Assembly (NCBI RefSeq): GCF_008033235.1
Contig: NZ_CP042432.1
Location: 2,046,001-2,110,000 of the forward strand
DNA length: 64,000 bases
Origin: Anseongella ginsenosidimutans
GTDB lineage: Bacteria > Bacteroidota > Bacteroidia > Sphingobacteriales > Sphingobacteriaceae
Reading direction: 5' to 3'
Part shown: positions 39,594-64,000 of the stretch, one piece after another
Layout of the letters: each line of letters opens with the position of its first letter
Position numbering within the stretch: the first letter of the stretch is position 1
The notes under the pieces: generated by a model
Told to the model about the DNA's origin: nothing
Seen by the model: the letters and a program-made list of their open reading frames with translations, nothing else
The model's database searches: none
Translations under genes and position numbers: made by a program

Positions 39594-39618
39594 AACTGGC
39601 TTGGTTCAATTAAGAAAA

Positions 39619-43148: not shown

Positions 43149-43373
43149 ATGAACTTATCGGAATTGCAGAAAGGTCAAACCGGAACCATATCGTCCTTTT
43201 CGGATGAAGAAATGTCGGTTAAGTTGATGGAAATGGGATGCCTGCCGGGAGAACCTGTGCGGGTGGATTACATTGCAGCATTTGGAGATCCCATGGCAGT
43301 TACCGTGGCAGGTTACCAATTGAGCATGCGTAAGAGTGAAGCAGCAACTATCATTTTAACGGCTATAGATTGA
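43149..43373 (+). CDS. feoA: Ferrous iron transport accessory protein FeoA
   Basis: 74-residue cytosolic SH3-like protein that regulates FeoB. MNLSELQKGQTGTISSFSDEE and VKLMEMGCLPGEPVRVDY are the usual FeoA blocks; AFGDPMAVTVAGYQLSMRKSEAATI closes the barrel. The next gene, feoB, begins on a TTG that overlaps its stop codon, so the two are translated together. Confidence 0.93.
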   Translation: MNLSELQKGQTGTISSFSDEEMSVKLMEMGCLPGEPVRVDYIAAFGDPMAVTVAGYQLSMRKSEAATIILTAID

Positions 43374-45484
43374 AAACCTTACTTAGGGTTGCCCTGATTG
43401 GCAATCCCAATACCGGAAAATCCACTGTTTTTAATGATCTTACCGGCCTTAATCAGAAGGTAGGCAATTTTCCCGGCGTCACCATTGATAAGAAAACAGG
43501 GCATTGCACACTTTCCGATACACATGTAGCGGAGGTAATTGATCTTCCGGGCATATACAGTCTATACCCCAAGGCAAAGGACGAAAAGATTGCCTTTGAA
43601 GTACTGGCGGATAAGAAAAACAAACTCTACCCGGACGCCGTCGTGGTAGTGGCTGATGCGTCTAACCTGAAGCGCAACTTGCTGCTTTTTACCCAGGTGG
43701 CTGACCTGAAGATCCCGGTTGTCCTGGCCCTGAACATGATTGATGTAGCGGAGAAGGCAGGGCTAAAGATTGATGTGGACAAGCTGGCCGGCAAACTGGG
43801 CGTACCGGTGGTGCCCTTGAACGCACGGAATAAGCGGGGTATTCCCGAATTGAAGGAAACGATCGCCCGCATTACTCCCGTTCCAACCCAGAATAATACC
43901 ATTAATGTTGAGGAGCTGGAACCGGCATTTCTTGGAGAACTGCAGGAGACGCTTAATATCGGTCATCCCTATGAAGCGCTGCAGGTGGCTAACCAATACA
44001 AGAACCTGCTGTACCTGAATGAAGGGAGCGGTCCTGCCATCGAAAAGCTTATTAAAAAACATGATTTTCAGCCGGGCCGGGTACAGCTCGCCGAAACGGC
44101 TGCCAGGTATAACTATATTGACAGCCTGTTGAAGGAGTGTGTCCGGCAGGAGGTTCCGGCGGCGATAGAGACCTTTACCAGCCGGATTGATAAGATATTA
44201 ACTCATAAGGTCTTTGGCCTGCTCATATTCGTACTGATACTTTTTATCCTTTTTCAGTCCATCTTTTCTTTGGCGGAATATCCCATGTCGCTTATCGAAG
44301 AAGGATTTGCATGGCTTAGCGGCTGGCTGGTTTCCGTTCTTCCCGCTGGCGTGCTTACGGACCTCCTCGTGGACGGGATCGTTGCCGGACTGGGCGGTGT
44401 GGTCATTTTCGTTCCACAGATCATTATTCTTTTCGCTTTCATTGCTATCCTGGAAGACACCGGCTATATGGCCCGCGTTATCTTCCTCATGGACAGGATC
44501 ATGCGAAAGGTGGGCCTTAACGGAAGATCAGTAGTGCCGTTAATCAGCGGTATAGCCTGTGCGGTGCCGGCCATTATGGCAACCAGAAGCATCGAGAACT
44601 GGAAGGACCGCCTGATAACGATCCTGGTTACGCCATTAATGAGCTGTGCAGCCCGTCTGCCGGTATATGTGTTGCTTATCTCCCTGGTCGTGCCCAACGA
44701 ACGGTTATGGGGTGTGTTCAATTTCCAGGGACTTGCCCTGCTATTCATGTACCTGTTGGGGCTGGTAGCGGCTATCGGCGTTGCCTACATAATGAAATTC
44801 ATTATCGGAATGCGCGAACGGTCTTATTTGCTTATGGAAATGCCTATTTACCGCATGCCCCGCTGGTCAAATGTGGGCCTGGTCATGTACGAACGCGCCC
44901 TGGCTTTTGTGGTCCAGGCCGGAAAGGTGATCATCGCCGTTTCCATTATTCTGTGGGTACTGGCTACCTATGGCCCAAGTGACAAGATGCAGGCGGTAGA
45001 GGCTAAATATGCATCGGCTGAAATGCAGGCGGAATTTACTCCGGAAGAAATTGAACATCACATTAGTTCCGAAAAACTTGAGAATTCGTATGCCGGCATA
45101 CTTGGGAAAACCATTGAACCCGTAATAGAGCCCCTTGGATTTGACTGGAAAATAGGAATTGCCCTGATCACGTCCTTTGCTGCGCGGGAAGTATTCGTGG
45201 GAACAATGGCCACTATTTACAGCGTGGAAGCAGACGACAGTCATATGGATTCCGTGCGGGAAAAAATGCTTCAGGCAAGGAACGCCCAAACAGGGCTTCC
45301 AGTATTCACTCTGGCAACCGCGTTTTCATTAATGGTATTTTACGCCTTTGCGATGCAGTGCATGAGTACCCTGGCTATCGTACAGCGGGAAACCAAAAGC
45401 TGGAAATGGCCGGTGATCCAGTTAGTCTATATGACCGGGATGGCTTATCTCGGCAGCCTCATTACCTACCAGCTGTTGAGTTAA
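43370..45484 (+). CDS. feoB: Ferrous iron transporter FeoB
   Basis: 704-residue inner-membrane Fe2+ transporter with an N-terminal G-protein domain. Walker A/G1 GNPNTGKS (10-17), G3 DLPG (around 62-65) and G4 NMID (around 122-125) are present, followed by a helical GDI-like spacer and two gate domains with many membrane helices (IFVPQIIILFAFIAILEDTGYMARVIFLMDR; SGIACAVPAIMATRSIENWKDRL; CAARLPVY). Translation starts at the TTG at 43370, overlapping feoA by four bases. It serves iron uptake under low-oxygen or acidic conditions. Confidence 0.96.
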   Translation: MKTLLRVALIGNPNTGKSTVFNDLTGLNQKVGNFPGVTIDKKTGHCTLSDTHVAEVIDLPGIYSLYPKAKDEKIAFEVLADKKNKLYPDAVVVVADASNLKRNLLLFTQVADLKIPVVLALNMIDVAEKAGLKIDVDKLAGKLGVPVVPLNARNKRGIPELKETIARITPVPTQNNTINVEELEPAFLGELQETLNIGHPYEALQVANQYKNLLYLNEGSGPAIEKLIKKHDFQPGRVQLAETAARYNYIDSLLKECVRQEVPAAIETFTSRIDKILTHKVFGLLIFVLILFILFQSIFSLAEYPMSLIEEGFAWLSGWLVSVLPAGVLTDLLVDGIVAGLGGVVIFVPQIIILFAFIAILEDTGYMARVIFLMDRIMRKVGLNGRSVVPLISGIACAVPAIMATRSIENWKDRLITILVTPLMSCAARLPVYVLLISLVVPNERLWGVFNFQGLALLFMYLLGLVAAIGVAYIMKFIIGMRERSYLLMEMPIYRMPRWSNVGLVMYERALAFVVQAGKVIIAVSIILWVLATYGPSDKMQAVEAKYASAEMQAEFTPEEIEHHISSEKLENSYAGILGKTIEPVIEPLGFDWKIGIALITSFAAREVFVGTMATIYSVEADDSHMDSVREKMLQARNAQTGLPVFTLATAFSLMVFYAFAMQCMSTLAIVQRETKSWKWPVIQLVYMTGMAYLGSLITYQLLS

Positions 45485-45522
45485 ATCCGGGATACTGCCG
45501 GTAAGGTACAGATCGTTTGTGC

Positions 45523-46134
45523 ATGGACAATATCAGCAAGCTTTCCACCTATATTCCTGAAAAGGCTGCACCGGTAATTGCCAGCTGGATTGACGTATAT
45601 AAAGCGCAGCTAAAGATTACCCGCCGCCGCAGTACGAAACTCGGCGACTACCGCCACCCCTATAATGGCCATCCCCATCGCATTTCCGTCAATCACGATC
45701 TGAATCCCTATGCTTTCCTGGTCACCCTTGTCCATGAGTTTGCACACCTGGTTACCTGGAATCACCATGGAAACAACGTCCAGTCGCATGGAAAGGAATG
45801 GAAGGGCTTCTTCCGCCGGATGATGCAGCCTTTCTTAGCCGCCGATATTTTCCCCGAAGATATCCGGGCAGCCCTTGCCCGTTACCTCGAAAACCCGGCA
45901 GCAGCCAGCTGTACCGACCTGACCCTCCTTCGAACCTTACGGAAACACGACTCGAAACCCGCCGGGACCCTGGCCGTGGAACAGCTCCCCGAAGGCGCGC
46001 TGTTCGTTCTCAATGGGACCCGCACCTTCCGGAAAGGCCCCCGCCTGCGCAAACGCTATCGCTGCACCGAAGTCAAAACCGGTCGCATCTATTTATTCAA
46101 TCCGCTGGCGGAAGTGACCTTGACGGAAAAGTGA
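45523..46134 (+). CDS. SprT-like domain zinc metalloprotein
   Basis: 203 residues from the ATG at 45523. An SprT-like domain fills residues about 15-110, with zinc-binding HEFAH (LVTLVHEFAHLVTW) and a downstream SHGKEWKGFFRRMM block, the usual third ligand region. SprT-like proteins are predicted metallopeptidases; eukaryotic relatives (SPRTN) digest DNA-protein crosslinks, but the bacterial role is poorly known. The C-terminal 90 residues (KRYRCTEVKTGRIYLFNPLAEV) resemble a short beta domain without the classical zinc-ribbon cysteines. It follows feoB by 38 bases. Confidence 0.85.
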   Translation: MDNISKLSTYIPEKAAPVIASWIDVYKAQLKITRRRSTKLGDYRHPYNGHPHRISVNHDLNPYAFLVTLVHEFAHLVTWNHHGNNVQSHGKEWKGFFRRMMQPFLAADIFPEDIRAALARYLENPAAASCTDLTLLRTLRKHDSKPAGTLAVEQLPEGALFVLNGTRTFRKGPRLRKRYRCTEVKTGRIYLFNPLAEVTLTEK

Positions 46135-46161
46135 GTTGCGCAAACTCATACGATAAAATAG

Positions 46162-46539
46162 ATGCAAAAAACGCCAGTTATGTTAAATCCGATAAAAAAT
46201 AAAGATGAGTACGAGGATGCACTTGCTCAAACATATAGTTTGATGCAAAAGGATATTCGTTCCGACTCTAAAGAGTCCGATGAACTGGAGGTTTTGTCTA
46301 TTCTGATAAAAGAGTACGAAAACAAGTGGTACCCCGTTCCCAGGGCCAATCCGCTGGAGGCAATAAAATTCCGAATGGATCAAATGAATTTGTCGGAATC
46401 GGAGTTATCGTCAATTCTGGGATACCGTTCCAGGAAATCTGAAATTTTGTCCGGTAAGCGAAAGCTAAGCTTGGCGATGATTCGAAAATTGACGGAGACG
46501 CTACGTATTCCCGCGGAAGTATTAATTCAAGCGTATTAA
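46162..46539 (+). CDS. HigA-type antitoxin / XRE-family regulator without a visible toxin
   Basis: 125 residues. Residues about 8-65 have the HigA N-terminal form (MLNPIKNKDEYEDALAQTYSLMQ ... DELEVLSILIKEYENKWYPVPRANPLEAIKFRM) and residues 70-125 a XRE-type HTH (SESELSSILGYRSRKSEILSGKRKLSLAMIRKLTETLRIPAEVLIQ). HigA normally pairs with a HigB mRNA interferase whose gene usually precedes it. Upstream here is the SprT-like gene and no HigB; nor is one seen downstream. It may have lost its toxin or serve as a regulator. An ATG at 46180 is an alternative start. Confidence 0.85.
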   Translation: MQKTPVMLNPIKNKDEYEDALAQTYSLMQKDIRSDSKESDELEVLSILIKEYENKWYPVPRANPLEAIKFRMDQMNLSESELSSILGYRSRKSEILSGKRKLSLAMIRKLTETLRIPAEVLIQAY

Positions 46540-46585
46540 TTCAACAGTTAATAGCCACTCAATTTAGTATTAGTGCTTGTACTTC

Positions 46586-46786
46586 CTATTCCTCCAGGGA
46601 ATCCAGGATTAATTGCTGCGATTTTTCTAAACCTGCTGCATATTGCTCGTCCAGGTCTTCGTGTTTCAATGAATGGCTAATTTTTTGAAGCACATCTGTA
46701 ATTACCGATGATATTTTTCCAGCGTTCATCGCCAGCTGTGCTTCGTGATCGTCTTCTGGTAAATTAAATTCGATAGTTGCTTTCAT
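46586..46786 (-). CDS. Small acidic protein of unknown function
   Basis: 66 residues (MKATIEFNLPEDDHEAQLAMNAGKISSVITDVLQKISHSLKHEDLDEQ...). No recognised catalytic domain. The start MKATIEFNLPEDDHEA is similar to a widespread small-protein family often found near phage and mobile genes. It begins 2 bases after the stop of the retropepsin-like gene in the same direction, so the two are co-transcribed. It is a believable gene because of the tight spacing and conserved N-terminal style, but function is unknown. Confidence 0.65.
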   Translation of the reverse strand: MKATIEFNLPEDDHEAQLAMNAGKISSVITDVLQKISHSLKHEDLDEQYAAGLEKSQQLILDSLEE

Positions 46787-46788
46787 AA

Positions 46789-48246
46789 CTAATAATAGTA
46801 AGTGAGTTCCGTGAAGTCCGCGGGTTGGTAGTCTTTTTTGAGTACATGATCGGCCGGTTTCCGGGGAAGGAACATGTATTCCAGTCTGTCAGGAGCAAAT
46901 TCGAAGAAGGCGCCGGTAGCAATATACGGGAAGCCCAGGGGGATGCCGGTAAGGTTCCAAACGGTGTCGGGAAAGGACCTGAAACGATATTCACGTCGTA
47001 ATTTAACGGAGAGAATACTGTCCCCTCGTTTCACTTTTATTTCAGCATGAGGCAGCGTTTTATTAAAGTTTTCGATGATGATCTCGTGGAAAGAAGGGAT
47101 TAATTTAAAGGCTGGAAATCTTGTCAATGGCCCTTTCCGGAGGATTTCCCTCCTATAAAAAGAGGGCTCTCCGTTGATAAAGGAGGACCTGTTGATAGCT
47201 AATACTGTATCGTTAACGCGGAGGTCTTTTACCTGCTCCATCCTGGCAATCCGGCTAATGCGGGGAATGGAGTCTTTTGATAATTGCAGGCCCATGCTGT
47301 TCACGTTCAGCGCAATTTGGCTTAAATAATCATACGTCTTGCGCTGTTTGTTTCCAAGATAAAGTTTCCGGCCGGGATAATCCAGGATCACATAATCAAA
47401 ACGCATCAGGAAGTCCATTCCCACTGTGGCCGTAGGAAGGCTTGTAAATTGAATGATCTCATTTGTAAGCGTATGATTACCCGCCTGCAGTGTGGCTTCT
47501 ACGTACCAGGTAGAGTCCATTTTCGGGACATAGTTGGCCGCCAGGAAAAGATTATTTTTGTTGACGCTGGTGACACCTCGCCAGAAAACCGCCATTTTTT
47601 TCAGCTGAGGCATGGAATTGAAAGCGCGGCTGTTAATACACGTAAAATAATCGCTTCCAGTATCGATCATCAGGTCAATATCCACATTATTGATCCGTAA
47701 GGTGATAACGGGGCAACTGCTTTGTAGCACAAAGGGAATGCCATCAGCAGTATTTACCCCAAAACTTTTACTGCTTTTTGCGGCGTATATTTTCCTTTCG
47801 TTGAAATCAATTTTCCAGGCGAGCCTTCTCAGGATATTTCCGCCTATTATCCCATCATACTTTATGTCCCGCTGCTTATACCTGCTTAAAGCTGAAAACG
47901 TTGTTCTTCCTACACGAAACGTGTCCAGCGCGACCCGGTTTGCCGGATAAGAGTCTCCAAAGACATCTTTAAACGGGTCTGCGCTTATCACCTCTTTTAC
48001 AGGAATAGGCATATCAAGGAGCGTAGTATGAGCGCCGCTGTCAAAAATGAAGTGATAAACCTTGCCGGCTATTTCAACCGCTACCAGCGGCGTGCTGCTG
48101 GAATCATAGCTTAACGCCAGCGTATCAATTTCCCGGTCCGGCGGGAAAATCATGGTCGGATCAGGCTTGGTATTACAAGCGCCCAGAAACAAAACGAGTG
48201 GAATACAAAAAAGGAAAACAAACTGATGAGCGTAGAATTTCTTCAT
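46789..48246 (-). CDS. Retropepsin-like aspartic protease-family lipoprotein with PDZ-like tail
   Basis: 485 residues, lipobox LFLGAC (Cys24). Two aspartic protease active-site motifs are on one chain, FIFDSGAHTTLLD (Asp69) and LMIDTGSDYFTC (Asp195), each in a retropepsin-like half (about 50-160 and 175-300). The C-terminal part (about 325-420; VKDLRVNDTVLAINRSS) resembles a PDZ domain. Proteins of this build are common in Bacteroidota and are predicted periplasmic peptidases; activity is unproven. No partner in the glycan loci; the downstream small protein shares the transcript. Confidence 0.82.
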   Translation of the reverse strand: MKKFYAHQFVFLFCIPLVLFLGACNTKPDPTMIFPPDREIDTLALSYDSSSTPLVAVEIAGKVYHFIFDSGAHTTLLDMPIPVKEVISADPFKDVFGDSYPANRVALDTFRVGRTTFSALSRYKQRDIKYDGIIGGNILRRLAWKIDFNERKIYAAKSSKSFGVNTADGIPFVLQSSCPVITLRINNVDIDLMIDTGSDYFTCINSRAFNSMPQLKKMAVFWRGVTSVNKNNLFLAANYVPKMDSTWYVEATLQAGNHTLTNEIIQFTSLPTATVGMDFLMRFDYVILDYPGRKLYLGNKQRKTYDYLSQIALNVNSMGLQLSKDSIPRISRIARMEQVKDLRVNDTVLAINRSSFINGEPSFYRREILRKGPLTRFPAFKLIPSFHEIIIENFNKTLPHAEIKVKRGDSILSVKLRREYRFRSFPDTVWNLTGIPLGFPYIATGAFFEFAPDRLEYMFLPRKPADHVLKKDYQPADFTELTYYY

Positions 48247-48339
48247 AGATCCGTGTTTAGGTTCAACTACCGGCTATATCCCTAATATACAATATAATTG
48301 TAAATATAATAGCAAAACGCAGGGCTCTTACCACCTGCC

Positions 48340-49668
48340 TTACTGTTTTCCGAAGGCAGCTTCAATTTCTTCCAGCGTTTTACCTTTGGTTTCCGGTACA
48401 TAGCGCCAGAGGAAGAGGAAGTAAATAAAGCATATCCCGGCGAACAGCAGAAAGGTCTGTACGGGGGCCAGTACTTCTATCAGGACGGGGAAGGCATAAG
48501 CCAGGGCAAAGCAGGCGGTCCACAGGGCAAAGGTGGCTACGGACACGGCCATGCCGCGAACGCCATTGGGGAATATCTCGGAGATCAGCACCCAGGTAAC
48601 CGGGGCCAGGGTGGTGGCGTAGGTGGCAATAAAGGCGAGTACGACCAGGGTGAGCCAGTAGCCTTCAAACAGGTTGAAATGGAAACAGGCGGCGATCAGG
48701 AGCAGGAATAATGCCATGAGCGAGGAACCGGCCAGCATCATCTTCTTCCGGCCGGCTTTGTCAACCAGCTGCATTGCCAGCAGGGTAAACAGGAGATTAA
48801 TTATTCCAATGAGGATCTGCTGAAATAGCTGGTCGTTGACCTGCATGCCGGCTTGTTCGAAGATGACGGGTGCGTAAAAGAAGACTGCGTTAGCGCCGGA
48901 AATTTGCTGGAAGACAGCGATCCCGATGCCAAGAAACACAATAAAGCGGATACCTTCTTTAATCAGGTCGGCAAACCGGGCTTTTACAAGCGTTTGGAAA
49001 AGACTGCTCCGGACAGCTTGAACTTCCTGCTCTATGGCAGCAGGCCCGAGCAATTTTGCCAGGACATTCCGGGCCTGGCCTTCCTTGCCATGCGCAAGCA
49101 GCCAGCGGGGGCTTTCCGGGACAAGGAAAACAAAGAAAAAGAATAATACAGACGGAAGGGCGCCCGAGGCAAACATCCAGCGCCAGTTATTGTCCCAGCC
49201 GGCCAGAAAATAGTTGGACAAGTAGGCCAGCAAAATGCCAATGACAATGGCCAGCTGATTGATCGAGACCATTTTTCCTCTTATTGCCGGGGGGCTTACT
49301 TCGGCAATATACAGGGGAGAGAGCATGGATGCAGCACCCACGCCGAAACCGGCCACGATGCGCCATAATACCAGTTCCCCTTCACTTGCCGCCAGACCCA
49401 TCATTAAAGAAGAAAGGGCAAAAATCAGCGCGGAAAGGATCAGGGGCTTTTTTCGCCCAAAGCGGTCAGTGAGCCAGCCGGTGGCCAGCGCGCCGAACAT
49501 GCAGCCCACGTAAAGGCTGCTCCCCACCCAGCCAAGGCCGGCGGCATCCAGGTTAAAATGGGGCTGGATAAACGGGATTGTCCCGGAAAAAATAGCGATG
49601 TCAAATCCGAAAAGCAGGCCTCCGAAGGCGGCCACCAGGCTGATCAGCCAGATATAGGTTTGGTTCAT
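48340..49668 (-). CDS. Sugar porter family MFS transporter
   Basis: 442 residues from the ATG at 49668 (an upstream in-frame start would add 15 residues). Twelve membrane segments and the sugar porter signatures are visible: GGLLFGFDIAIFSG (about 18-31), DRFGRKKPLIL loop, IAEVSPPAIRGKMVSINQLAIVIG, FFVFLVPESPRWLLAHGK, DKAGRKKMML, and a closing VPETKGKTLEEIE. These import monosaccharides by proton symport or facilitated diffusion. It lies behind the araC-type gene on the same strand, with its own operator-like direct repeat overlapping the araC stop codon. It probably imports the sugar released by the GH2-GH30 locus. Confidence 0.93.
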   Translation of the reverse strand: MNQTYIWLISLVAAFGGLLFGFDIAIFSGTIPFIQPHFNLDAAGLGWVGSSLYVGCMFGALATGWLTDRFGRKKPLILSALIFALSSLMMGLAASEGELVLWRIVAGFGVGAASMLSPLYIAEVSPPAIRGKMVSINQLAIVIGILLAYLSNYFLAGWDNNWRWMFASGALPSVLFFFFVFLVPESPRWLLAHGKEGQARNVLAKLLGPAAIEQEVQAVRSSLFQTLVKARFADLIKEGIRFIVFLGIGIAVFQQISGANAVFFYAPVIFEQAGMQVNDQLFQQILIGIINLLFTLLAMQLVDKAGRKKMMLAGSSLMALFLLLIAACFHFNLFEGYWLTLVVLAFIATYATTLAPVTWVLISEIFPNGVRGMAVSVATFALWTACFALAYAFPVLIEVLAPVQTFLLFAGICFIYFLFLWRYVPETKGKTLEEIEAAFGKQ

Positions 49669-49719
49669 GCTGTTTTTAATTTGTGACCGTGAGGCTAAAT
49701 TACCGGATAGCAAGTACTT

Positions 49720-49755
49720 GAAAATGGAGGATTCCCGCGAAAAGATGGATTATTT
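49720..49755 (-). promoter_or_regulatory. AraC-type direct repeat operator upstream of the MFS gene
   Basis: Read on the minus strand: AAATAATCCAT, 12 variable bases, ATCCTCCATTTTC. The same two blocks with the same 12-base gap lie at 50807-50842 upstream of the DUF5107 gene. The ATAATCCAT and ATCCTCCAT halves are direct repeats offset by 21 bp, the known spacing of AraC half-sites. A -7-like TAATTTAG follows 17 bases after the element, and the MFS ATG follows 51 bases after it. The element overlaps the araC gene's stop codon. Confidence 0.75.
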
Positions 49756-50665
49756 ACCGGCCCTGGCGCTTCCCGGGCCGTTCGTCATTCAATTGCCAGC
49801 GCAGCCGGTACTCTTTTGGCGATACGCCCATGTTTTCCTTGAATATCCTTGAAAAATAATAGGGGTCTTCAATGCCGGTGGCAACGGCCACTTCGTAAAT
49901 ACGCAGGTCCGTAAAATGCAGCAGCTGGCAGGCTTTCTGCATTTTCAGGTGATTAAAATATTCGATGGGCGAAAACCCTGTTTTCTTGTGGAAGAGACCC
50001 GAAAAATGCGAGATCGACAAATGTACATGATCGGCTATTTGTTTTAGGGTGAGCGCCTCCCCGATGTGCTGTTTCAGAAAAAGAATGGAGGAATCAATGG
50101 CGTCGGGCTGTTCCCTGGGAGCAGTAAGGTTAAATTTGTCGTTATAGATAAAGGCGGTAAGGAAGCCGGAGAAATTAAGCGCAACATATTCCAGGTTATC
50201 TTTACTGTAACCCAATTGCAACACCTGGTAAATATTCCTGAACAGATTAATATAGGAGTCATTGTACTGCACGGCATTTCGCTGCCTGAGCATGCGGCGG
50301 TACAGTAGTTCGCTTAAATGATCAGCCAGCTTTCCCTTGAAATGCGCCCAGTAAATGGTCCAGGGCTGCTCTTCTGAAGCCCAGTAAACATGCTCCCGGC
50401 CCTGGGGGACGATCAGGTATTCATTCGGGTTGATCTGAAACTCTTTTTTTCCGAGGGAGCAATGGCCGCAGCCGCTCACGCAATAGATCAGGATATGCTC
50501 CTCGGCCCCTTCCGGCCGTTCCCTGTAATGGAATTTTGCCCGCGGGTAATAACCAATATCGGTAATATGAAGATCCTGGATCACGGGCAGGGCTTCTGAT
50601 TGGCGTACGACGTTTTTAGGAAGCACAATGGCCTCCTGCCCTTCAAATCCTTCTTTCTTTTTCAT
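49754..50665 (-). CDS. AraC-family transcriptional activator
   Basis: 303 residues. An N-terminal cupin-type sensing domain (about 20-170; HYRERPEGAEEHILIYCVSGCGHC, YLIVPQGREHVYWASEEQPWTIYWAHFKG) and a C-terminal double HTH (about 195-300; AIDSSILFLKQHIGEALTLKQIADHVHLSISHFSGLFHKKTGFSPIEYFNHLKMQKACQLL). The sensor type binds sugars in AraC, RhaS and MelR. Its neighbours are a sugar MFS gene (same strand, downstream) and a glycosidase operon (opposite strand, upstream). Two matching direct-repeat sites in its flanks (49720-49755 and 50807-50842) fit a local regulator that activates both. Confidence 0.92.
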   Translation of the reverse strand: MKKKEGFEGQEAIVLPKNVVRQSEALPVIQDLHITDIGYYPRAKFHYRERPEGAEEHILIYCVSGCGHCSLGKKEFQINPNEYLIVPQGREHVYWASEEQPWTIYWAHFKGKLADHLSELLYRRMLRQRNAVQYNDSYINLFRNIYQVLQLGYSKDNLEYVALNFSGFLTAFIYNDKFNLTAPREQPDAIDSSILFLKQHIGEALTLKQIADHVHLSISHFSGLFHKKTGFSPIEYFNHLKMQKACQLLHFTDLRIYEVAVATGIEDPYYFSRIFKENMGVSPKEYRLRWQLNDERPGKRQGR

Positions 50666-50806
50666 TTTCGGGCTGCATTACTATAAACTTTGCATTGCGC
50701 GAGACAAAATAACTGCGGTTACCATCCTTTACAGTTTACGCAGTTGGTGGTTTAGGAAAGGGCGTTTTTACACCCGGGTTTGCAGGAAACCCTTGTAAAA
50801 ATAGGA

Positions 50807-50842
50807 AAATAATCCATGATAAAACAAGGATCCTCCATTTTC
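50807..50842 (+). promoter_or_regulatory. AraC-type direct repeat operator upstream of the DUF5107/GH2-GH30 operon
   Basis: AAATAATCCAT (50807-50817), 12 variable bases, ATCCTCCATTTTC (50830-50842). The two half-sites ATAATCCAT and ATCCTCCAT are 21 bp apart. The element's TTTT end takes the place of a -33 box, and TAACTTCG (one base off TAnnTTTG) follows 18 bases later, as expected of an activator site overlapping the -33. The likely ATG is 45 bases downstream. A short GGGTTT/AAACCC hairpin (50776-50792) lies just upstream. Confidence 0.75.
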
Positions 50843-50887
50843 CCGGGCGCGTACAGGAATTAACTTCGGTTATTGAAATCAAAACGC

Positions 50888-54378: not shown

Positions 54379-57300
54379 ATGGACAGCCGCATTCATTTGT
54401 TGATTTGTACCCTTTTTTGCCTGCTGACGATGCCTGACCAGACAGCTGCCGGCGACTGGCCGGTTCCACCAGGCAAGGATGATGGTGAAACGTGGCTTGC
54501 CGCCGGCGACCCGCCCCGCCTTTCCATCGGCGGTGAATGGGAATATCGACTGGACCCTGAAAACAAGGGCCTGGAGGAAAAATGGTATGTGCAGCGCTTT
54601 CGGGCCGAAGGCAGCTTGCAGCTCCCTGGCACCCTGGATGACGCCGGTATTGGCCGCAAGCCCGAACTTACCGCGGATACGATCAGCAGGGAGGTCATGC
54701 TTCACCTGACGCGGAAACATCAATATGAGGGAGTGGCCTGGTATCGCCGGGAAGTGATCGTGCCGGAAAGCTGGGAGGGAAAAGAAACCAGCTTATTTCT
54801 TGAGCGCGCCCTTTGGAAAACTACTCTCTGGATCGACGGAAAAGAGGCAGGTTCCCGGGAAAGCCTCAATACGCCCCATGAATATGACCTGGGGAAATTG
54901 CTTTCCCCGGGAAGGCATGTGCTTGTCCTGAGAATCGATAACAGCAAGCAATACGATATCAGTTACAAGAATATGGCCCACGCCTATACCAATGAAACCC
55001 AGATCATGTGGAACGGTGTGATTGGCGATATGTACCTGGCCGCGGTTCCGGATGCGGCTATTTCTTCGGTGCAGGTGTTTCCTGACGTGGAAGCCCGGAC
55101 AGCAACCGCCGTCCTGAAGCTGGAAAGCCGGTTCGCGGAAGCGGTTAAAAGCAGCCTCCGGCTGACGGTATTTTCAGGTGAAAGGATTATTCAACAAAGA
55201 AAGATCGCATTAAACCTGTCTCCGGGACAATCCACGCATCGTACAACACTGCTGCTTGGGCCGGACGCCGAATTATGGGATGAATTCAATCCCCATCTTT
55301 ATACGCTCCGCGCGGAACTTGGCGCTACCGCTCCCGGATCCCGGCCGGACCACCCCGGGCGCGCGGAACACCCGGCCGCCGAGATTGCAAAGGCCGCCGC
55401 AACATTCGGTTTGCGGGAATTTCATACGGATAAGGAACAGCTTTTCCTGAACGGGCGCCGCCTCTTTCTCCGGGGTACCCTTGAATGTAGCATTTTTCCG
55501 CTTACGGGCTATCCGCCTGCCGGTAAAAAAGGCTGGGAAAAAGTATTCACCGCGGCCCGCTCCTACGGGCTTAACCACCTTCGTTTCCATTCCTGGTGCC
55601 CTCCTGAGGCCGCCTTCGAAGTAGCCGATTCCATGGGCTTCTACCTGCAGGCCGAACTTCCGCTATGGGCCAAGGATTTTGGAGAAGATACCGCCACCGT
55701 ACGTTTTATCCGCGAAGAAGCCGAGCGTATGATCGCTGCCTACGGGAACCATCCTTCCTTCTGCTTCTGGTCGCTGGGGAATGAACTTCAGGGAGATTTT
55801 GACCTTATGGAATCGCTGCTGGTGGAACTGAAAGAACGAGACCCCCGCCGCTTATATACGACCACCACCTTTACCTTCCAGGGAGGGCATGGCGACTGGC
55901 CGGAAACTCAGGACGATTTTTTCGTGACGCAATGGACCAAAAAGGGCTGGGTGCGGGGACAAGGGATCTTCAATACGCGCTACCCGGATTTTAACACAGA
56001 TTATTCGGTTGCTATTGAGGGTATTTCCGTTCCTGTGATCACACACGAGATTGGCCAGTATTCGGTTTATCCAAATCTTGATGAAATAAAAAAATACACC
56101 GGGGTGCTGGAGCCGCTGAATTTTATAGCAGTCCGGAATGATCTCCGCCGCAAAGGCCTGCTCAAATACGCAGATGAATTTACTCTTGCCAGCGGTAAGT
56201 TATCGGTTTTATTATACAAGGAAGAAATAGAACGCGCGCTTAAAACCAGGGGGCTCAGCGGTTTCCAGTTGCTGGACCTGCATGACTTTCCCGGCCAGGG
56301 AACGGCGCTTGTAGGCATCCTGGACGCTTTCTGGGATAGCAAGGGCCTCGTTGACGCGGAAGTCTTCCGGCAGTTCTGTTCACCTGTGGTGCCCCTGCTC
56401 CGGTTTCCGAAAGCCGTCTACACCAACGACGAATATTTTGAAGCTGCGGCGGAGTTGTCGAATTACAGTGCGGAAGACCTTGAAAACCTGCGTGCAGAAT
56501 GGAAAGTTACCGGGAGGGAAGGTGCAATTATCGCAACGGGTAAATTCGAGGCAGCCACCATTCCTGCGGGGTCGCTGGCTTCGCTCGGAACCATACGTAC
56601 GCCGCTGGCCGGGCTCAGGGAAGCTGCCAAATTGAACGTAACCATTACTATTCCCGGTACGGACTATAGAAATGAATGGCCCATTTGGGTATATCCCGCT
56701 TCTCTTTCCGATAGAACAAAACCGGGAGACTTATCCGAGGTGGTCTTTACCCGTTCGGCCACTGAAGCGCTGAAGTTACTCGCCGAAGGCAGGAAGGTGC
56801 TGCTGAACCCGGATACTTCGCAGCTGAAAGGCGTGGACGGCCGCTTCACCCAGGTATTCTGGAGTCCGGTGCATTTTCCAAATCAGCCGGGGACAATGGG
56901 TTTGCTTTGCGATCCGGAACATCCCGCGCTGGCGGATTTTCCCACTGACTTTCATACCAACTGGCAATGGTGGGACCTGGTCATGCACTCCAAAAGCATG
57001 GTCATTGATTCTCTTCCGCCTGCTGAGCCGCTGGTACGCGTAATCGATAATTTTTTCAAAAACCGGAAAATGGCCCTGGTGCTGGAGGCAAAAGTAGGGA
57101 AAGGCCGGCTGGTGATTTGTTCCGCAGACATCAGCAGCGACCTTGAAAACCGGCCAGCCGCCCGGCAATTGCGATACAGCCTGCTGACTTACATGAAGGG
57201 CGGCTCGTTCCGGCCGGAAACCGTACTCGAAAAGGAAGACGTCCGCTCCTTAGTTAAGAGTGAGGCAACCAGCCTTATTTTGAAACTTGATGAGACCCGC

Positions 57301-58752
57301 CAAACCATTCATAGTTTCGGGGCATCGGACTGCTGGACGGCAAAATTTATCGGAACCTGGGCCGATGAAGAAAAGAAAAACCGCATCGCCGACCTGCTCT
57401 TTAGCATGGATACCCTGGACAGTGGCAGTCCCGAAGGGATTGGCCTTTCCCTTTGGCGGTTCAATATCGGAGCGGGAAGTTTTGAACAGGGTGTTGCTTC
57501 AGGTATCCGGACCGATTGGCGGCGGGAAGAAAGTTTTTTAAACCCGGACGGCTCTTATGACTGGGAGAAACAGCAAGGGCAGCAATGGTTCCTGGAAGCC
57601 GCCCGCGAGCGTGGGGTAAAATACTCCCTTGGCTTTTCCATTGCTCCCCCGGTATCGATGGCGCAAAACGGAAAGGCATTCAGCCCGGGCGGGAATTCTT
57701 TAAATCTCCAAACCGGAAAGCTGGATGATCTCGCGGCTTTCCTTGCGAAAGTAGCCGGACATTTTCGCTTCGATTATTTAAGCCCTGTGAACGAACCCCA
57801 ATGGGACTGGGCCGCCAAAGGTAATGGAGCCAGCCAGGAGGGCAGCCCGGCGAAGAACAGTGAAATAAGCCGGCTGGTGAAATTGTTATCGAAGGAAATA
57901 GCCTCCGCCGGAGGGAAGACCGAAGTCGTTGTGGGCGAAGCGGGCCAGTGGAATTACCTCTACGAAAGAAACAAGGACGGGCGTGGTGACCAGGTACGGG
58001 AATTCTTTTCTCCCGCGTCGCCCAATTATATCGGAGGCTTGCCCAATGTCCTGAACGTGATCTCAGGGCACAGTTACTGGACCACTTGCCCGGATTCGAC
58101 GCTGACCGGGGTACGACAGCAGGTGGCACAGGCAGTGGCTTCGGTTGAGCCGGCGCCGGCCGTATGGCAAACCGAATTCGGCATACTGGGAAATATCTGC
58201 GATCAGTACAGCGGTTCACCAAGAAATACCAGCATTGATTACGGGCTGTACGTGGCAAAAGTTATTCACCACGACCTTACGGTGGCGGAAGTTTCCTCCT
58301 GGCAGTGGTGGCTGGCGATGAGTCCTTACGATTACAGCGATGCTCTTGTATATATCAACGATCCGCAGGGAACTATAAACCCGGACAATGCAAAGGAAGA
58401 CGGGAGGGTACTTGAGTCAAAACAATTATGGGCCATGGGTAATTTTTCAAGATTTATCCGCCCGGGCATGCAGCGGGTGGAAGCTTCTCTTTCTGAACAG
58501 CCTTCTTCCGGCGCGGCAGCAGGCAGCTTAATGGTTTCCGCCTATAAAGATACTTCCGCGAGAAAGCTGGTGATCGTTATTATCAATGAAGGCACGTCTG
58601 AAAGGAAGCTTAGCCGGCCGGAAACGCTCCGGTCCGGCGCGCTCCGGGTATTCACCACTGATGCCAGGCGGAACCTGGAAAAATCGGTGATTACCGGCGA
58701 TCATTTTACCGTAGGTCCGCGTTCGGTGACCACCCTCTTAGCAACATATTGA
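54379..58752 (+). CDS. Giant bifunctional glycosidase: GH2-type half fused to GH30-type half
   Basis: 1457 residues with a signal peptide (MDSRIHLLICTLFCLLTMPDQTAAG). Residues about 45-640 are GH2: jelly roll sugar-binding domain, immunoglobulin-like domain, then TIM barrel with acid/base Glu469 (SLGNELQG) and nucleophile Glu557 (THEIGQY). About 640-960 is a beta and ThuA/amidotransferase-like region seen at the ends of some GH2 enzymes. About 970-1457 is GH30 (IHSFGASDCWTAKFIG), with LSLWRFNIGAGS, acid/base Glu1139 (SPVNEPQWDW) and nucleophile Glu1266 (WQTEFG), most like the beta-1,6-galactanase branch. All four catalytic carboxylates are present, so both halves look active. It overlaps the following SGNH gene by one base. 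Confidence 0.88.
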   Translation: MDSRIHLLICTLFCLLTMPDQTAAGDWPVPPGKDDGETWLAAGDPPRLSIGGEWEYRLDPENKGLEEKWYVQRFRAEGSLQLPGTLDDAGIGRKPELTADTISREVMLHLTRKHQYEGVAWYRREVIVPESWEGKETSLFLERALWKTTLWIDGKEAGSRESLNTPHEYDLGKLLSPGRHVLVLRIDNSKQYDISYKNMAHAYTNETQIMWNGVIGDMYLAAVPDAAISSVQVFPDVEARTATAVLKLESRFAEAVKSSLRLTVFSGERIIQQRKIALNLSPGQSTHRTTLLLGPDAELWDEFNPHLYTLRAELGATAPGSRPDHPGRAEHPAAEIAKAAATFGLREFHTDKEQLFLNGRRLFLRGTLECSIFPLTGYPPAGKKGWEKVFTAARSYGLNHLRFHSWCPPEAAFEVADSMGFYLQAELPLWAKDFGEDTATVRFIREEAERMIAAYGNHPSFCFWSLGNELQGDFDLMESLLVELKERDPRRLYTTTTFTFQGGHGDWPETQDDFFVTQWTKKGWVRGQGIFNTRYPDFNTDYSVAIEGISVPVITHEIGQYSVYPNLDEIKKYTGVLEPLNFIAVRNDLRRKGLLKYADEFTLASGKLSVLLYKEEIERALKTRGLSGFQLLDLHDFPGQGTALVGILDAFWDSKGLVDAEVFRQFCSPVVPLLRFPKAVYTNDEYFEAAAELSNYSAEDLENLRAEWKVTGREGAIIATGKFEAATIPAGSLASLGTIRTPLAGLREAAKLNVTITIPGTDYRNEWPIWVYPASLSDRTKPGDLSEVVFTRSATEALKLLAEGRKVLLNPDTSQLKGVDGRFTQVFWSPVHFPNQPGTMGLLCDPEHPALADFPTDFHTNWQWWDLVMHSKSMVIDSLPPAEPLVRVIDNFFKNRKMALVLEAKVGKGRLVICSADISSDLENRPAARQLRYSLLTYMKGGSFRPETVLEKEDVRSLVKSEATSLILKLDETRQTIHSFGASDCWTAKFIGTWADEEKKNRIADLLFSMDTLDSGSPEGIGLSLWRFNIGAGSFEQGVASGIRTDWRREESFLNPDGSYDWEKQQGQQWFLEAARERGVKYSLGFSIAPPVSMAQNGKAFSPGGNSLNLQTGKLDDLAAFLAKVAGHFRFDYLSPVNEPQWDWAAKGNGASQEGSPAKNSEISRLVKLLSKEIASAGGKTEVVVGEAGQWNYLYERNKDGRGDQVREFFSPASPNYIGGLPNVLNVISGHSYWTTCPDSTLTGVRQQVAQAVASVEPAPAVWQTEFGILGNICDQYSGSPRNTSIDYGLYVAKVIHHDLTVAEVSSWQWWLAMSPYDYSDALVYINDPQGTINPDNAKEDGRVLESKQLWAMGNFSRFIRPGMQRVEASLSEQPSSGAAAGSLMVSAYKDTSARKLVIVIINEGTSERKLSRPETLRSGALRVFTTDARRNLEKSVITGDHFTVGPRSVTTLLATY

Positions 58753-59519
58753 TGTATATGAATAAGATAAGCCCCCTGGTTTTGGTTTTATTGCTGGCCG
58801 GCCTTTCTGCCGGCGGGCAGCTTCAGGCAGTTTCCCCGGAGGTTATTCCCGGTTCGGGCATACACCCGGATTCCGCCGCCGGTGCTGGCAGTTACCTGGA
58901 TTCCGTTAAAGCTGAATTACAAAAGCAATGGCCCCATAACCGGACCATTAATCTTGTTTTTCACGGGCATTCCGTGCCATCCGGCTACTTCAAAACACCG
59001 GAGGTCAGGACCTTTGACGCTTATCCTTACCTGGTGTTGAAAGAGCTGAAATCCCTTTATCCAAATGCGGTGATCAATGTAATTGTCACCGCTATCGGCG
59101 GAGAAAACTCAGTACAGGGGGCAAAAAGGTTCCGGGACGAAGTGCTTTCGCACCGGCCGGATGTGCTGTTCATTGATTACGCCCTGAACGACCGGGGGCC
59201 CGGAATTGAAAAGAGCAGGGCCGCCTGGGAGGAAATGATAGCCCGGGCTTTGGAAAACGATGTAAAAGTTATCCTGCTGACGCCTTCTCCCGATTTGCGG
59301 GTGGACATCGGTCAGGCGGGGAATGAGCTGGAAAAGTTTACCGGCATGATCCGGGAGCTGGCGAAAAAGCATCGCGTCGGACTGGCGGATAGTTACGGGC
59401 AATTCAGGCGTGCTGCGCTTGCGGGAAAGGACCTGGAGGAATTTATGTCCCAGGTGAACCACCCTAATAGGAAAGGGCATGAACTTATTGCGGCGGAGAT
59501 CATGGAATATTTTAAATAA
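58752..59519 (+). CDS. SGNH/GDSL-family hydrolase, secreted
   Basis: 255 residues; the start at the ATG 58752 overlaps the previous stop codon (TGATG). Signal peptide MYMNKISPLVLVLLLAGLSAGG. The block I serine is in VFHGHSVPSGYF (GHS instead of GDS), the Gly block in TAIGGENS, block III Asn in DYALNDRG, and the catalytic His in VNHPNRKGHEL. SGNH enzymes in glycan loci are typically carbohydrate esterases that remove acetyl or other acyl groups. Its place between GH2-GH30 and SusC genes supports that role here, but the ester it cuts is unknown. Confidence 0.85.
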   Translation: MYMNKISPLVLVLLLAGLSAGGQLQAVSPEVIPGSGIHPDSAAGAGSYLDSVKAELQKQWPHNRTINLVFHGHSVPSGYFKTPEVRTFDAYPYLVLKELKSLYPNAVINVIVTAIGGENSVQGAKRFRDEVLSHRPDVLFIDYALNDRGPGIEKSRAAWEEMIARALENDVKVILLTPSPDLRVDIGQAGNELEKFTGMIRELAKKHRVGLADSYGQFRRAALAGKDLEEFMSQVNHPNRKGHELIAAEIMEYFK

Positions 59520-59570: not shown

Positions 59571-62500
59571 ATGAAAAAGCAATTAATGAAGGTACGGAAA
59601 GCGGCAGGTATGGCATGCCTGCTGCTGGTACTCCTGGTGCAGGCGGCCTTCGGGCAGGTATTGCCAGCCGTCAGCGGAACGGTGGCGGACAGCAGCGGGG
59701 CGCCGCTGCCCGGTGTGAGCGTATTGGTCAAGGGCACGCAAAACGGCGCTTCTACCAATGCCGATGGTAGCTTTTCCCTTCAGAACGTGGCAGGGGGTGC
59801 CACCCTGGTGTTTTCTTTTATCGGTTACCAGGCGCAGGAGGTCCCGGTCAACGGCCGGGAAGTGATCAATGTCACGCTGCAGCAGGACCTGCAGGCGCTT
59901 GATGAAGTAGTGGTGGTGGGTTACGGAACGGTAAAGAAGAGCGACCTTACCGGGGCGGTAGCTTCCGTAAAAGCGGAAGAACTGGCTACCGAAGGTCTGA
60001 ATACTGTCGCCAAGGCGCTGCAGGGTAAAGTGGCCGGGGTAACGATCGAATCAGCAGGAGGCGATCCCGGAATGGGAACCCGTATTATGATCCGCGGCGT
60101 GGGTTCCCTGAATAATAATAATCCTTTGTACCTGGTTGACGGCGTGCCTGTCCCGGACATCAATAATATATCGCCGAATGATATTGCTTCCATCGAAGTG
60201 CTGAAGGACGCTTCCGCCGCCGCCATTTACGGCTCCCGGGCAGCGAACGGCGTGGTGCTGATCACGACCAAGTCGGGCGAGGCGGGAAAAACGCAGGTCA
60301 TATTCAATGCCAATGCCGGGGTACAGCGGCTGGCGAAGAAAATAGATGTGCTGAATGCGCAGGAATGGGCCAGCGTAAGCAATGCGGCACACGATGCGGC
60401 GGGGCTTCCGCGCCTGGAGATTGCCGAAGATCCGGCCCTGCTGGAAAGCGGCCTTGACTGGCAGGACGAGGTCTATCGCACGGCGCCGGTACAGAATTAT
60501 GAGCTTAGCATTACCGGGGGAAATAAAGGCAGCCAGTACAGCGTGTCGGGCGGCTATTTCAACCAACGGGGCTTAGTGAAGGTGACCGGTTATGAGCGGC
60601 TGAACCTTCGCGTGAAATCGGAAACCACCAAGGGCCGTTTTCGATTTGGGGAAACCTTACTGCTTTCGCAGGAAAGCTGGACAAAGATGCCCGGCGGATG
60701 GGGCGGGCAGGGCGGCAACCCGGTAGGCTCCGCTGTTAAAATGATCCCGGTGTTCGATATTTACGATACTACCGCCGTGGGCGGCTTCGCAGGGGCCTAC
60801 GGCCCGGTACTGAACGTGGCCAACCCCCTTGCACAGCTTCACCTGGAAGATATCAGGAACCGCTCAACCGACATTGTCCTCAATTTTTTCGGGGAAGTGG
60901 AACTGCTGCCCGGGCTGAGTTATAAGCTGAACCTTGGTTATAATAATACTCACGGCTACGATTATGATTACGAGCGCCGTTACCAGGTGGGAACGCTGTT
61001 CACCCACCAGACCAATGACCTGAGCGAGGACCGCAGTCACCGCCGCTTGCTCATGCTGGAGAATACCTTGAATTTTACCCGGGAATTCGGAAAGCACAGC
61101 CTGCAGGCCCTCGCCGGTTATACCATGCAGCAAAACCGCCTGAGAACCCTGTGGGGATCTGCCATTGACCTCCCTGACGGCATCAAAGTCCTGGACGCGG
61201 CGGCAAGCAATCCGGCCACCGGCGGGAACCTTTACGAAAGCGCCCTGCTTTCGATGCTGGGCCGTGTGGTATATTCCTACGACAGCCGCTACCTGCTGAC
61301 CGCCAGTTTCCGGAGGGATGGTTCTTCCCGCTTCGGCGATGAAAACCGCTATGGGAATTTCCCTTCGATTGCCCTGGGCTGGAATATTTCCAATGAAACG
61401 TTCTTCGATTCTTTCAGCCAGGCGATCAACCGGCTGAAACTCCGGGGAAGTTACGGGGTGCTGGGAAACCAGGAGATCGGGGATTACCTGTATAGCGCCG
61501 CCATTGCTTCCAATATTAATTATGTCACGGGCGCCGATCAGCATAAGTGGTTCGGAGCCATACAAACGGCATTTGCCGACCCTGATATCAAATGGGAAAA
61601 TTCAAGCACCTTCAATATTGGGGTGGACCTTGGCGCCTGGCAGGATAAACTGACCTTCACCGCTGATTATTTCATCAAGAGGTCTACCGACGTATTACTG
61701 AACGTGCCTATTCCCGGTTCCACGGGTGCGGTAGGCAACCCGGTGGTCAATGCCGGAATCATTGAAAATCGCGGCCTGGAAGCTTCCCTGGGTTATTCGG
61801 GCGGAAAAGGCGACTTCAATTACGATGTTTACGGAACCATTTCAGCAATCAATAATGAAGTGGAGCGCCTGGGCACGGGCACTCAGCAGATCTTCGGAGG
61901 GCAGCCCACCCATCACGGCTCTTCCACCACCCTTACACAGGCCGGAGGCGAAGTGGGGGCTTTTTACCTGGTAAAAACGGATGGTATCTTTAATTCCGAA
62001 GAAGAGGTGCAGGCGCACAGCAAGAACGGGACCCTGATCCAGCCGAATGCTTCCCCCGGGGATATCCGCTTCGTGGATGCAAACGGTGACGGCAGTATTT
62101 CCGATGAAGACAGGGTGCATGCCGGAAGCGCTTTTCCTGATTTTACCTACGGGCTGGGCTTTAACGCCCAATGGAGGAATTTTGACCTGGGCCTCTTCTT
62201 CCAGGGAACGCAGGGGAACATGATCTATAACGGCTTCCGCCAGGACATAGACGGCATGAACCTGGAAATTAATTACTCGAAGGCAACCCTGAATGCCTGG
62301 ACACCGGAAAACCATACGGATTTTCCCCGTGCAGTGATCAACGATCCTAATTATAATACCCGGACGTCCGACCGTTTCCTGGAAGACGGTTCTTATCTCC
62401 GCCTGAAGTCCCTGCAGCTGGGGTACCTTTTCCCGGCGCAGGCGCTGGAACGGATCGGGGCCGGATCCCTGCGGGTTTACCTGAGCTTTGATAATTTATT

Positions 62501-62636
62501 TACGATTACCGGCTACGACGGCTATAACCCGGACCTGGGCAGAACAGGTTCCATATTGAACAGGGGAGTGGATTACGGCCATGTGGCGTATCCGCTGGCC
62601 CGCACGGCCAACCTGGGTGTTCAACTGCAGTTTTAA
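59571..62636 (+). CDS. SusC/RagA-family TonB-dependent transporter
   Basis: 1021 residues. Signal peptide [29 protein letters not shown]. CarboxypepD_reg-like domain (about 35-110; [32 protein letters not shown]), TonB box [10 protein letters not shown] (near residue 110), plug with [33 protein letters not shown], then the barrel ending in LQLQF. It belongs to the GH2-GH30 operon (52 bases after the SGNH gene), though a separate start is possible. The imported oligosaccharide is expected to be the substrate of the GH2-GH30 enzyme. Confidence 0.95.
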   Translation: [1021 protein letters not shown]

Positions 62637-62657: not shown

Positions 62658-64000
62658 ATGAAAATGAAAAAGATACTGATCACGCTGGTAGCCGGCCTGC
62701 TGCTGACTGCCTGCACGGAAGGCCTTTTAGACCTGAAAAATCCTAATCTGCTCACCACCGATACTTACTGGGAAACAAAAGACGATGTGATGAGTGCGTT
62801 CGCCGCCACCTATAGCCTGCTCCGGGATGTGAACGGAGGCTACTGGGGCGTTCGCGGCGTGGAACTGACCAACGGAAGGGGGGATGATTTCTTTATCCGG
62901 AACGACGTAAAGGACCTCTACCAGTTTTCCACCTTCACCAACGCGCCAGATAACGGAGTAGTGACCAATATATTCAATAACTGCTACCGGGGCATTTTCC
63001 GGTGCAACCAGATCCTTGAAAACATCGCGGAAATACCGATGAGCGAAGAAGAAAGGGCGCAGCTGATCGCGGAGGCGAAATTCCTGCGGGGGCTAAATTA
63101 TTTCCACCTGGTCATTAATTTCGGGGACGTGCCTGTCCGCCTGCAAACTCCGCAAAGCCAGGAAGAATACTATGCTGCCAAATCACCTGCAGAAGAAGTA
63201 TGGCAGCAGGTATTCCAGGACTTCAGCGAAGCTAAAGCCGGGCTGCCGCTGGAATATCCTGCGGAATGGACCGGCCGGGCTACCCGTGGAGCCGCGCTGG
63301 GTTATCTTGGGAAAGCCTATCTCTATCACGAGGACTGGGACAAGGCCGAAGCAGCCTTTAGCGAACTGATGCAGGCGCCTTACCAGTATGACTTGACGGC
63401 GGACTATGCGGATAATTTTACTGCGGAAAGGGAGAATAACGAAGAATCCGTCTTTGAGATACAGGTTCAGGACGTGGGCGGCACTAACCCCTGGGATGTA
63501 GGCAGCTCAAATGAAGCCCTTGGTGTGACTACGGCGCAGGAATTCGCGCCCGCGGAAGTGGCCGGCTGGTTCGAAGCTTATCCTACCGATAAAATATTCA
63601 ACGCTTTCCAGGAAGAAAAAACACCGGGCGGCGATTTCGACAAGCGCATGTATGTGACCCTGGTTTGGGACTACCCCGGCGCCATGTACTACAACCGGCC
63701 TTTTTCGGAATTCAAATCGGAATTCGGCTTTCAATCCCGGTTCCGGAAGTACCAGAACTGGCAAAATGACAATGAAGGGCGCTTTATTTCTAATATTAAC
63801 GAGCGGGCGCTTCGCTTTGCCGACATATTACTGATGTATGCCGAAGCGGTGACCATGCAGGGCAAGCCCCAGGAGGCCTACGAGCCGGTCAATCGCATCC
63901 GCCAACGCGCAGGGCTGTCCGTATTGCCTGCCGGCTTCGGAGAAGCGCAGATGATGGCCGAAATACAGCAGCAGCGCATGCTGGAATTCTGCCGGGAAGG
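62658..64000 (+). CDS. SusD/RagB-family surface lipoprotein, 3' end beyond the window
   Basis: The frame is open from the ATG at 62658 to the last base, 447 codons. Lipobox LLLTAC (Cys19) then TEGLLDLKNPNLLTTDTYWETKDD. TPR helix LIAEAKFLRGLNYFHLVINFGDVPVRL (about 138-164), and ADILLMYAEAVTMQGKPQEAYEPVNRIRQRAGLSVLP near the end, as in all SusD proteins; the last visible residues (QQQRMLEFCREG) are the start of the final RRXEF block, so perhaps 50-60 residues are missing. It pairs with the SusC gene 21 bases upstream. Confidence 0.94.
   Translation, partial: MKMKKILITLVAGLLLTACTEGLLDLKNPNLLTTDTYWETKDDVMSAFAATYSLLRDVNGGYWGVRGVELTNGRGDDFFIRNDVKDLYQFSTFTNAPDNGVVTNIFNNCYRGIFRCNQILENIAEIPMSEEERAQLIAEAKFLRGLNYFHLVINFGDVPVRLQTPQSQEEYYAAKSPAEEVWQQVFQDFSEAKAGLPLEYPAEWTGRATRGAALGYLGKAYLYHEDWDKAEAAFSELMQAPYQYDLTADYADNFTAERENNEESVFEIQVQDVGGTNPWDVGSSNEALGVTTAQEFAPAEVAGWFEAYPTDKIFNAFQEEKTPGGDFDKRMYVTLVWDYPGAMYYNRPFSEFKSEFGFQSRFRKYQNWQNDNEGRFISNINERALRFADILLMYAEAVTMQGKPQEAYEPVNRIRQRAGLSVLPAGFGEAQMMAEIQQQRMLEFCRE

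Follow-up and report, generated by a model that had tools for sequence, protein, structure and literature searches.

A one-component AraC-type regulator very probably acts as a sugar-responsive activator on 21-bp direct repeats and switches on four gene sets in Anseongella ginsenosidimutans. As predicted from the sequence, the genes switched on jointly would be those of a sugar importer, a DUF5107-GH2/GH30-GDSL-SusCD cluster, a second SusCD set and, probably, a distant PSD1 protein. The regulator gene lies in the window, by which we mean the whole 64,000-bp stretch of DNA that was analysed. The coordinates of the features are given in Table 1.

Table 1. Features of the predicted regulon (window positions unless stated otherwise)
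Feature	Position	Strand	Basis
Sugar porter family MFS transporter	48340..49668	-	PF00083; TIGR00879 over cut-off
MFS-gene -7 element TAATTTAG	49695..49702	-	21 bp past second TCCAT; 5/6 to TAnnTTTG
MFS-gene operator AAATAATCCAT-N12-ATCCTCCATTTTC, half-sites 21 bp apart	49720..49755	-	pattern match, sister-species site
AraC-family regulator, 303 aa, AraC_binding cupin + double helix-turn-helix	49754..50665	-	PF02311, PF12833, PF00165
Operator of DUF5107/GH2-GH30/SusC genes	50807..50842	+	pattern match
DUF5107-gene -7 element TAACTTCG	50861..50868	+	22 bp past second TCCAT; 5/6 to TAnnTTTG
DUF5107 + TPR protein, 1162 aa	50888..54376	+	PF17128
GH2 (BT4151-like) + GH30 fusion	54379..58752	+	family matches
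GDSL esterase/lipase-like protein	58758..59519	+	family matches
SusC-like TonB-dependent receptor (SusC1)	59571..62636	+	family matches
SusD-like protein (SusD1)	62658..64000, continues beyond window end (L011:659-2167)	+	
PSD1/PSCyt1 protein	L012:6026-10300 (genome C1:2852025-2856299)		

The operator pattern has exactly two matches in the window, one on each strand. An earlier note, made from the sequence letters, had described them as 24 fixed bases around a 12-base gap with unrelated gap letters, and both a pattern scan and a comparison of the two copies bore this out. The half-sites ATAATCCAT and ATCCTCCAT are direct repeats offset by 21 bp, as the note had stated. The gene map and the family matches agree with its claim that the copies flank an AraC-family gene, in opposite orientations. 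The -7-like boxes were found at the distance it gave, 17-18 bases past the full motif (21 and 22 bp past the second TCCAT), and the start codons within the 45-51 bases it named (ATG 49668 on the minus strand at 51, ATG 50888 on the plus strand at 45). Both boxes match five of the six positions of TAnnTTTG, the -7 element of the Bacteroidota housekeeping promoter, a consensus taken from the available part of PMC9723704. No copy of the pattern occurred in 100 dinucleotide shuffles of the window, and a scan at up to three mismatches returned just the two perfect copies. The minus-strand copy overlaps the araC stop codon, of which it takes in the final two bases. In an ungapped comparison of 60 bp on each side of both copies, only a few similar bases were found beyond the motif. 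Since the flanks and gaps are unalike and fail to align, a duplicated promoter is unlikely as the origin of the matched sites, and we ruled it out.

The N-terminal domain of the regulator is an AraC-type ligand-binding/dimerisation cupin (PF02311, 44.3 bits against a cut-off of 21.1), and both helix-turn-helix models, PF00165 and PF12833, exceed their cut-offs. Its best NCBIfam model is that of E. coli AraC. With 107.6 bits it falls below the cut-off of 208 of this equivalog model, and we rejected the protein as an orthologue of the arabinose regulator; no arabinose genes were found among the eight window proteins that were family-tested. A hybrid two-component PUL regulator was also rejected, as the 303-aa protein consists of cupin and helix-turn-helix alone, with no fusion to a sensor, histidine kinase or receiver. 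On the other side of the second operator, the genes for the DUF5107/TPR protein, the GH2-GH30 fusion, the GDSL protein, SusC and SusD follow each other in that order on one strand. The GH2 part scored 850.3 bits with the BT4151 exo-beta-1,4-galactosidase model (under the cut-off of 1500), and the MFS transporter 381.5 bits with the XylE model (under the cut-off of 608). A GH2 near the BT4151 model, a GH30 and a XylE-like porter suggest a galactose-containing or related plant glycan, which is our guess for the substrate. The DUF5107 domain is highly conserved, with a mean column identity of 68% in an alignment of 21 sequences, the window's included. A PDB search at E <= 1 gave a single sequence relative of the protein, the Parabacteroides distasonis TPR protein 5cd6. 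Foldseek with the AlphaFold model of the domain returned mutarotase-like and glycosidase folds; the model is poor (mean pLDDT 51.2), so these matches are no more than a hint that the domain may resemble a galactose-mutarotase-like fold. Upstream of the locus, a GH43 gene with F5/8-type and fn3 domains lies at 39601-41355, and no operator at up to three mismatches was found near it. A small ORF at 46162-46539 resembles a HigA-type antitoxin by eye.

The single-contig 4.32-Mb genome was scanned with ATAATCCAT-N12-ATCCTCCAT, and the reversed pattern served as the control. At up to three mismatches there were 10 matches, compared with one for the reversed pattern: three perfect, one with one mismatch, one with two and five with three. 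The perfect matches are the two in the window and C1:2112359 (window position 66359); the one-mismatch site is at C1:2856374. A looser pattern gave seven matches (reversed, two) and added one site to the earlier ten. In the four best of these 11 matches, TAnnTTTG is present at five or more of six positions, 21-22 bp past the second TCCAT; the other seven reach at most 3/6 at offsets of 20-23. The many unrelated copies that the earlier note had named as a sign against its reading did not turn up, as just four of the 11 genome matches pair the motif with the spaced -7 box. The third site is upstream of SusC2 and SusD2, which are followed by DUF4959- and DUF4998-type genes, a gene set 2.4 kb beyond the window end. 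The fourth, distant site is upstream of the PSD1/PSCyt1 gene, with DUF1501 sequences after PSD1. These sites support the predicted joint control of the MFS gene and the DUF5107/GH2-GH30 operon by the regulator they flank. They also indicate that the regulon is larger than the two targets of the earlier note: the second SusC/SusD set is part of it, and the PSD1 gene probably is.

The motif was then compared across 58 loci encoding AraC homologues, taken from named genomes. Within 400 bp of the ends of the homologues, 38 sites with up to four mismatches were found in 46,154 bp, compared with 21 in the other 1,017,465 bp of these loci. With the pattern reversed, the counts were 0 near and 20 far. 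A near site was present in 36 of the 58 loci and absent, at this threshold and distance, in 22; these locus counts are not independent, because many of the loci come from one genus. In six of the 22 (L054, L055, L062, L082, L084 and L086), an exact TCCAT-N16-TCCAT stands in front of some other gene in the locus. In a post hoc re-reading of 20 of the 22 (L054 and L084 excluded), weaker versions, followed at 22 bp by a TAnnTTTG-like box, were seen in L055, L057, L083, L088 and L095, and most of the others had no convincing site.

The spacing of the half-sites was examined with TCCAT-Nk-TCCAT, k running from 2 to 40. Near AraC, there were 12 exact matches at k=16 and 0-2 at each other k; with one mismatch there were 36 at k=16 (runner-up k, 18). 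Across the 58 loci, exact TCCAT-N16-TCCAT occurs 42 times, 20 of them in coding sequence. The 22 intergenic copies stand before DUF5107 (6), MFS (5), SusC (4), GH2-GH30-like (2) and unlabelled genes (4), and one had no gene assigned; the loci with the pair upstream of DUF5107 are L053, L054, L067, L068, L097 and L102. A second N16 peak, of 29 matches away from AraC, was discarded as mostly an artefact, with 16 of them in one conserved Chitinophaga PSD1 coding stretch. The operator site adjoins homologues of the regulator across several Bacteroidota families. The half-sites are conserved in relatives, a check that the earlier note had proposed, both beside the AraC homologues and before the relatives' target genes. 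On these comparisons, the paired sites are real and deeply conserved.

The distance from operator to promoter was determined in 53 pooled sites (38 near the regulator, 11 further intergenic ones and four of the own genome), in whose selection the -7 box was not a criterion. Six gammaproteobacterial sites were set aside. All 47 Bacteroidota sites, which are not independent since 18 come from a single Chitinophaga gene pair, have TAnnTTTG at 5/6 or better within offsets of 17-25. The exact offset past the second half-site is 22 bp in 39 sites and 21 bp in eight. When the tails were base-shuffled, a mean of 4.06 and a maximum of 10 had the box. The pooled columns give a 17-bp half-site near AYCRTAARATAATCCAT and, 21 bp downstream, its repeat in a weaker form. 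The k=16 peak and the fixed -7 distance point to half-sites in tandem, spaced by about 21 bp, ahead of the target promoters.

Next, we considered the targets in relatives. In the same-genus relative G001, a MAG of 230 contigs, the regulator is 89% identical. The SusC2 orthologue (82%) has the 30-mer identical letter for letter, and DUF5107 has a site with one mismatch. The MFS orthologue (86%) is on another contig and carries a site with two mismatches and a 5/6 box. The regulator contig of G001 extends about 28 kb on the regulator's far side, indicating that regulator and MFS gene are not neighbours in that genome. The MFS site is kept on a separate contig, which speaks against the MFS operator being a by-product of the araC 3' end. 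A binning error in the MAG might also account for the separation. The MFS/araC/DUF5107 locus apparently underwent rearrangement within the genus. The sister species has its MFS gene (L163, compared with window 43370-49713) beside a feoB-like gene, named by eye from the protein start; araC and DUF5107 are absent from that locus and lie on another contig.

Among 200 genomes, DUF5107 (E <= 1e-150) was found in 27, of which 26 also hold the regulator; the regulator (E <= 1e-50) was found in 42. We searched 26 regions of about 6 kb upstream of DUF5107, from 25 relatives other than the own genome and G001, for the joint motif TCCAT-N16-TCCAT-N21/22-TAnnTTTG (16 positions scored), with 24 decoy spacings as the control. 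The motif was present in 12 of the 26 regions at up to one mismatch (decoys: mean 0.0, maximum 0) and in 17 at up to two (mean 0.4, maximum 3). At up to three, the contrast was weaker, with 19 regions and a decoy mean of 3.2 (maximum 9). Nine regions, G115 among them, had no joint motif at up to two mismatches. The 17 positions include six at 50-63 bp before DUF5107, four at 48-56 bp before an MFS gene preceding DUF5107, two at 159 and 362 bp before MFS, and one over the called start of MFS; for the other four, the next labelled gene comes after 0.8-2.5 kb (three positions) or 4.5 kb (one). Plain counting of the motif in the 200 relatives was abandoned as too noisy a test: at up to two mismatches 102 genomes matched, the reversed controls matched too, and some matches were simple TCCATTA-type repeats (G121, G150 and G187). 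As an illustration, seven sites picked by eye among the matches listed all have a box of at least 5/6 at 21-22 bp.

We also surveyed the 200 genomes for PSD1, which gave 20 matches in 19 genomes, the own genome included. In the upstream DNA retrieved for the other 19 matches, eight of which are 61-64% identical, no site with up to three mismatches was found; the G001 contig C198 stops inside the PSD1 gene. All 18 Chitinophaga loci with PSD1 right after AraC carry an intervening site (up to four mismatches), and these sites agree with the unlinked PSD1 site of the own genome. PSD1 is thus probably under the same control in the own genome and in Chitinophaga, and not in general, since a widely conserved target was unsupported outside these two. 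DUF1501 by PSD1 was seen in L063, the one Chitinophaga locus checked for it.

We propose the following mechanism. The protein would be a one-component activator, probably responsive to a sugar, and would bind as a dimer to half-sites in tandem that read [AT][TC]C[AG]-N-[AC]A[AG]AT-N-ATC[CT]AT. With the repeat at 21 bp, both monomers would sit on the same helix face. The half-site nearer the promoter ends 21-22 bp before the TAnnTTTG box, at about the point where a -33 element would start. As this half-site abuts the -33 region, the bound protein would be able to reach RNA polymerase in the manner of AraC at araI2, by class II activation. By known family behaviour, a ligand in the cupin would lead to recruitment of RNA polymerase. 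We infer that this regulator binds the sites and activates, that the genes downstream are co-transcribed, and that the ligand is a sugar, perhaps of the galactose type; activation as the direction of control is read from the geometry of the sites.

It is unlikely that the sites, being true operators, are bound by another of the genome's AraC-type helix-turn-helix proteins, whether one-component or hybrid two-component. The genome holds 26 further AraC-type matches, and the available text of PMC3878776 describes Bacteroides PUL hybrid two-component regulators that likewise use direct repeats, on average 21 bp apart. However, the site adjoins homologues of this very regulator in several Bacteroidota families, and the next best own-genome match to the regulator reaches merely E = 1.9e-16. 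In addition, G115, which has DUF5107 without the regulator (E <= 1e-50), lacks a good site ahead of its MFS-DUF5107 pair; this argument is weak, as eight other regions, from regulator-bearing genomes, also miss.

Repression, with occupancy by the -33 region blocking RNA polymerase until a sugar releases the protein, appears quite improbable. AraC-type proteins can act as repressors, and the proximal half-site does abut the -33 region, but AraC-type activators usually have their tandem repeats laid out in this way, in a fixed register immediately ahead of the promoter. That the match reflects a recent promoter duplication, or chance, without function, is hardly credible. The two copies are only 1 kb apart, yet their gaps and flanks are unrelated, further unlinked copies exist in the genome, and the conservation, the fixed spacing, the sister-species MFS site and the DUF5107 upstream test all contradict it. 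Activation by the flanked regulator is the preferred reading.

The araI half-sites of E. coli AraC are offset by 21 bp, and araI2 overlaps the -35 element. The regulator described here resembles AraC at araI1-araI2 in its cupin and double helix-turn-helix, its best NCBIfam model and its tandem half-sites. It differs in that the pooled consensus at the box A position is not TAGC and in that the promoter is of the Bacteroidota -7 type. Box B of AraC, as given in the available part of PMC4514859, shares TCCAT with the half-site. For Bacteroides, Bacillales and Enterococcus, comparative prediction has likewise given one-component AraC-family regulators with 21-bp periodic direct repeats; their targets are rhamnose genes, unlike here, and their motifs are called unique per group (PMC3870299, available excerpts). 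The hybrid PUL regulators share the AraC-type helix-turn-helix, the direct repeats and the PUL targets, whereas they are sensor kinase fusions and the protein here is a one-component cupin protein. CgrA of Zobellia, likewise in the Bacteroidota, is a one-component AraC-family positive regulator of a carrageenan-degrading cluster, and the substrate also induces a SusCD pair that is unlinked (PMC5698469). The enzymes are different from those here, and the available text of that paper gives no operator motif. XylRA (PMC12125979) and AraR (PMC4666351), as far as their available texts describe them, are regulators other than this one.

Six gammaproteobacterial loci (Marinobacterium, Hahella), whose AraC homologues are 30-35% identical, have ATAGTCCAT-N12-AT[TG]ATCAAT close to the regulator gene, a sequence that differs from the window motif at four positions. 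We take these homologues to be MmsR-like. In L099 and L106, the two loci with family-tested neighbours, the motif precedes an aldehyde dehydrogenase gene by 56-61 bp, the L099 product of which exceeds the cut-off of the methylmalonate-semialdehyde dehydrogenase model; unlike here, this is catabolism of another kind. The name MmsR draws on the available part of PMC5431877, and no MmsR operator sequence was found in the available parts of that paper, PMC8151288 and PMC8041468. At L101:9695-9744, by an Omnitrophota homologue whose surroundings include a glycyl radical enzyme gene, ATAATCCAT is followed by TTGTCCAT, with a TCCAT offset of 20 bp.

A broader reading, possible but doubtful, is that one regulator-operator pair, with its half-site and 21-bp spacing, has been kept across Bacteroidota, and perhaps gammaproteobacteria and Omnitrophota, while the controlled genes were exchanged (MFS/DUF5107, PSD1/DUF1501, SusCD or an mmsA-type catabolic operon). 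If this were true, the ligand would be a small metabolite that these systems have in common, and one unrecognised sugar pathway would include both PSD1/PSCyt and DUF5107, which may be mutarotase-like. The mechanism proposed for the window's regulator is known AraC-type control, and the regulon appears to be new; no prior description of it was found in one open-licence library, as far as its available text goes. With the operator and the promoter register defined, a testable regulon is provided for a regulator group of several Bacteroidota families. DUF5107 and PSD1, both families whose function is unknown, would thereby be tied to sugar import under one switch.
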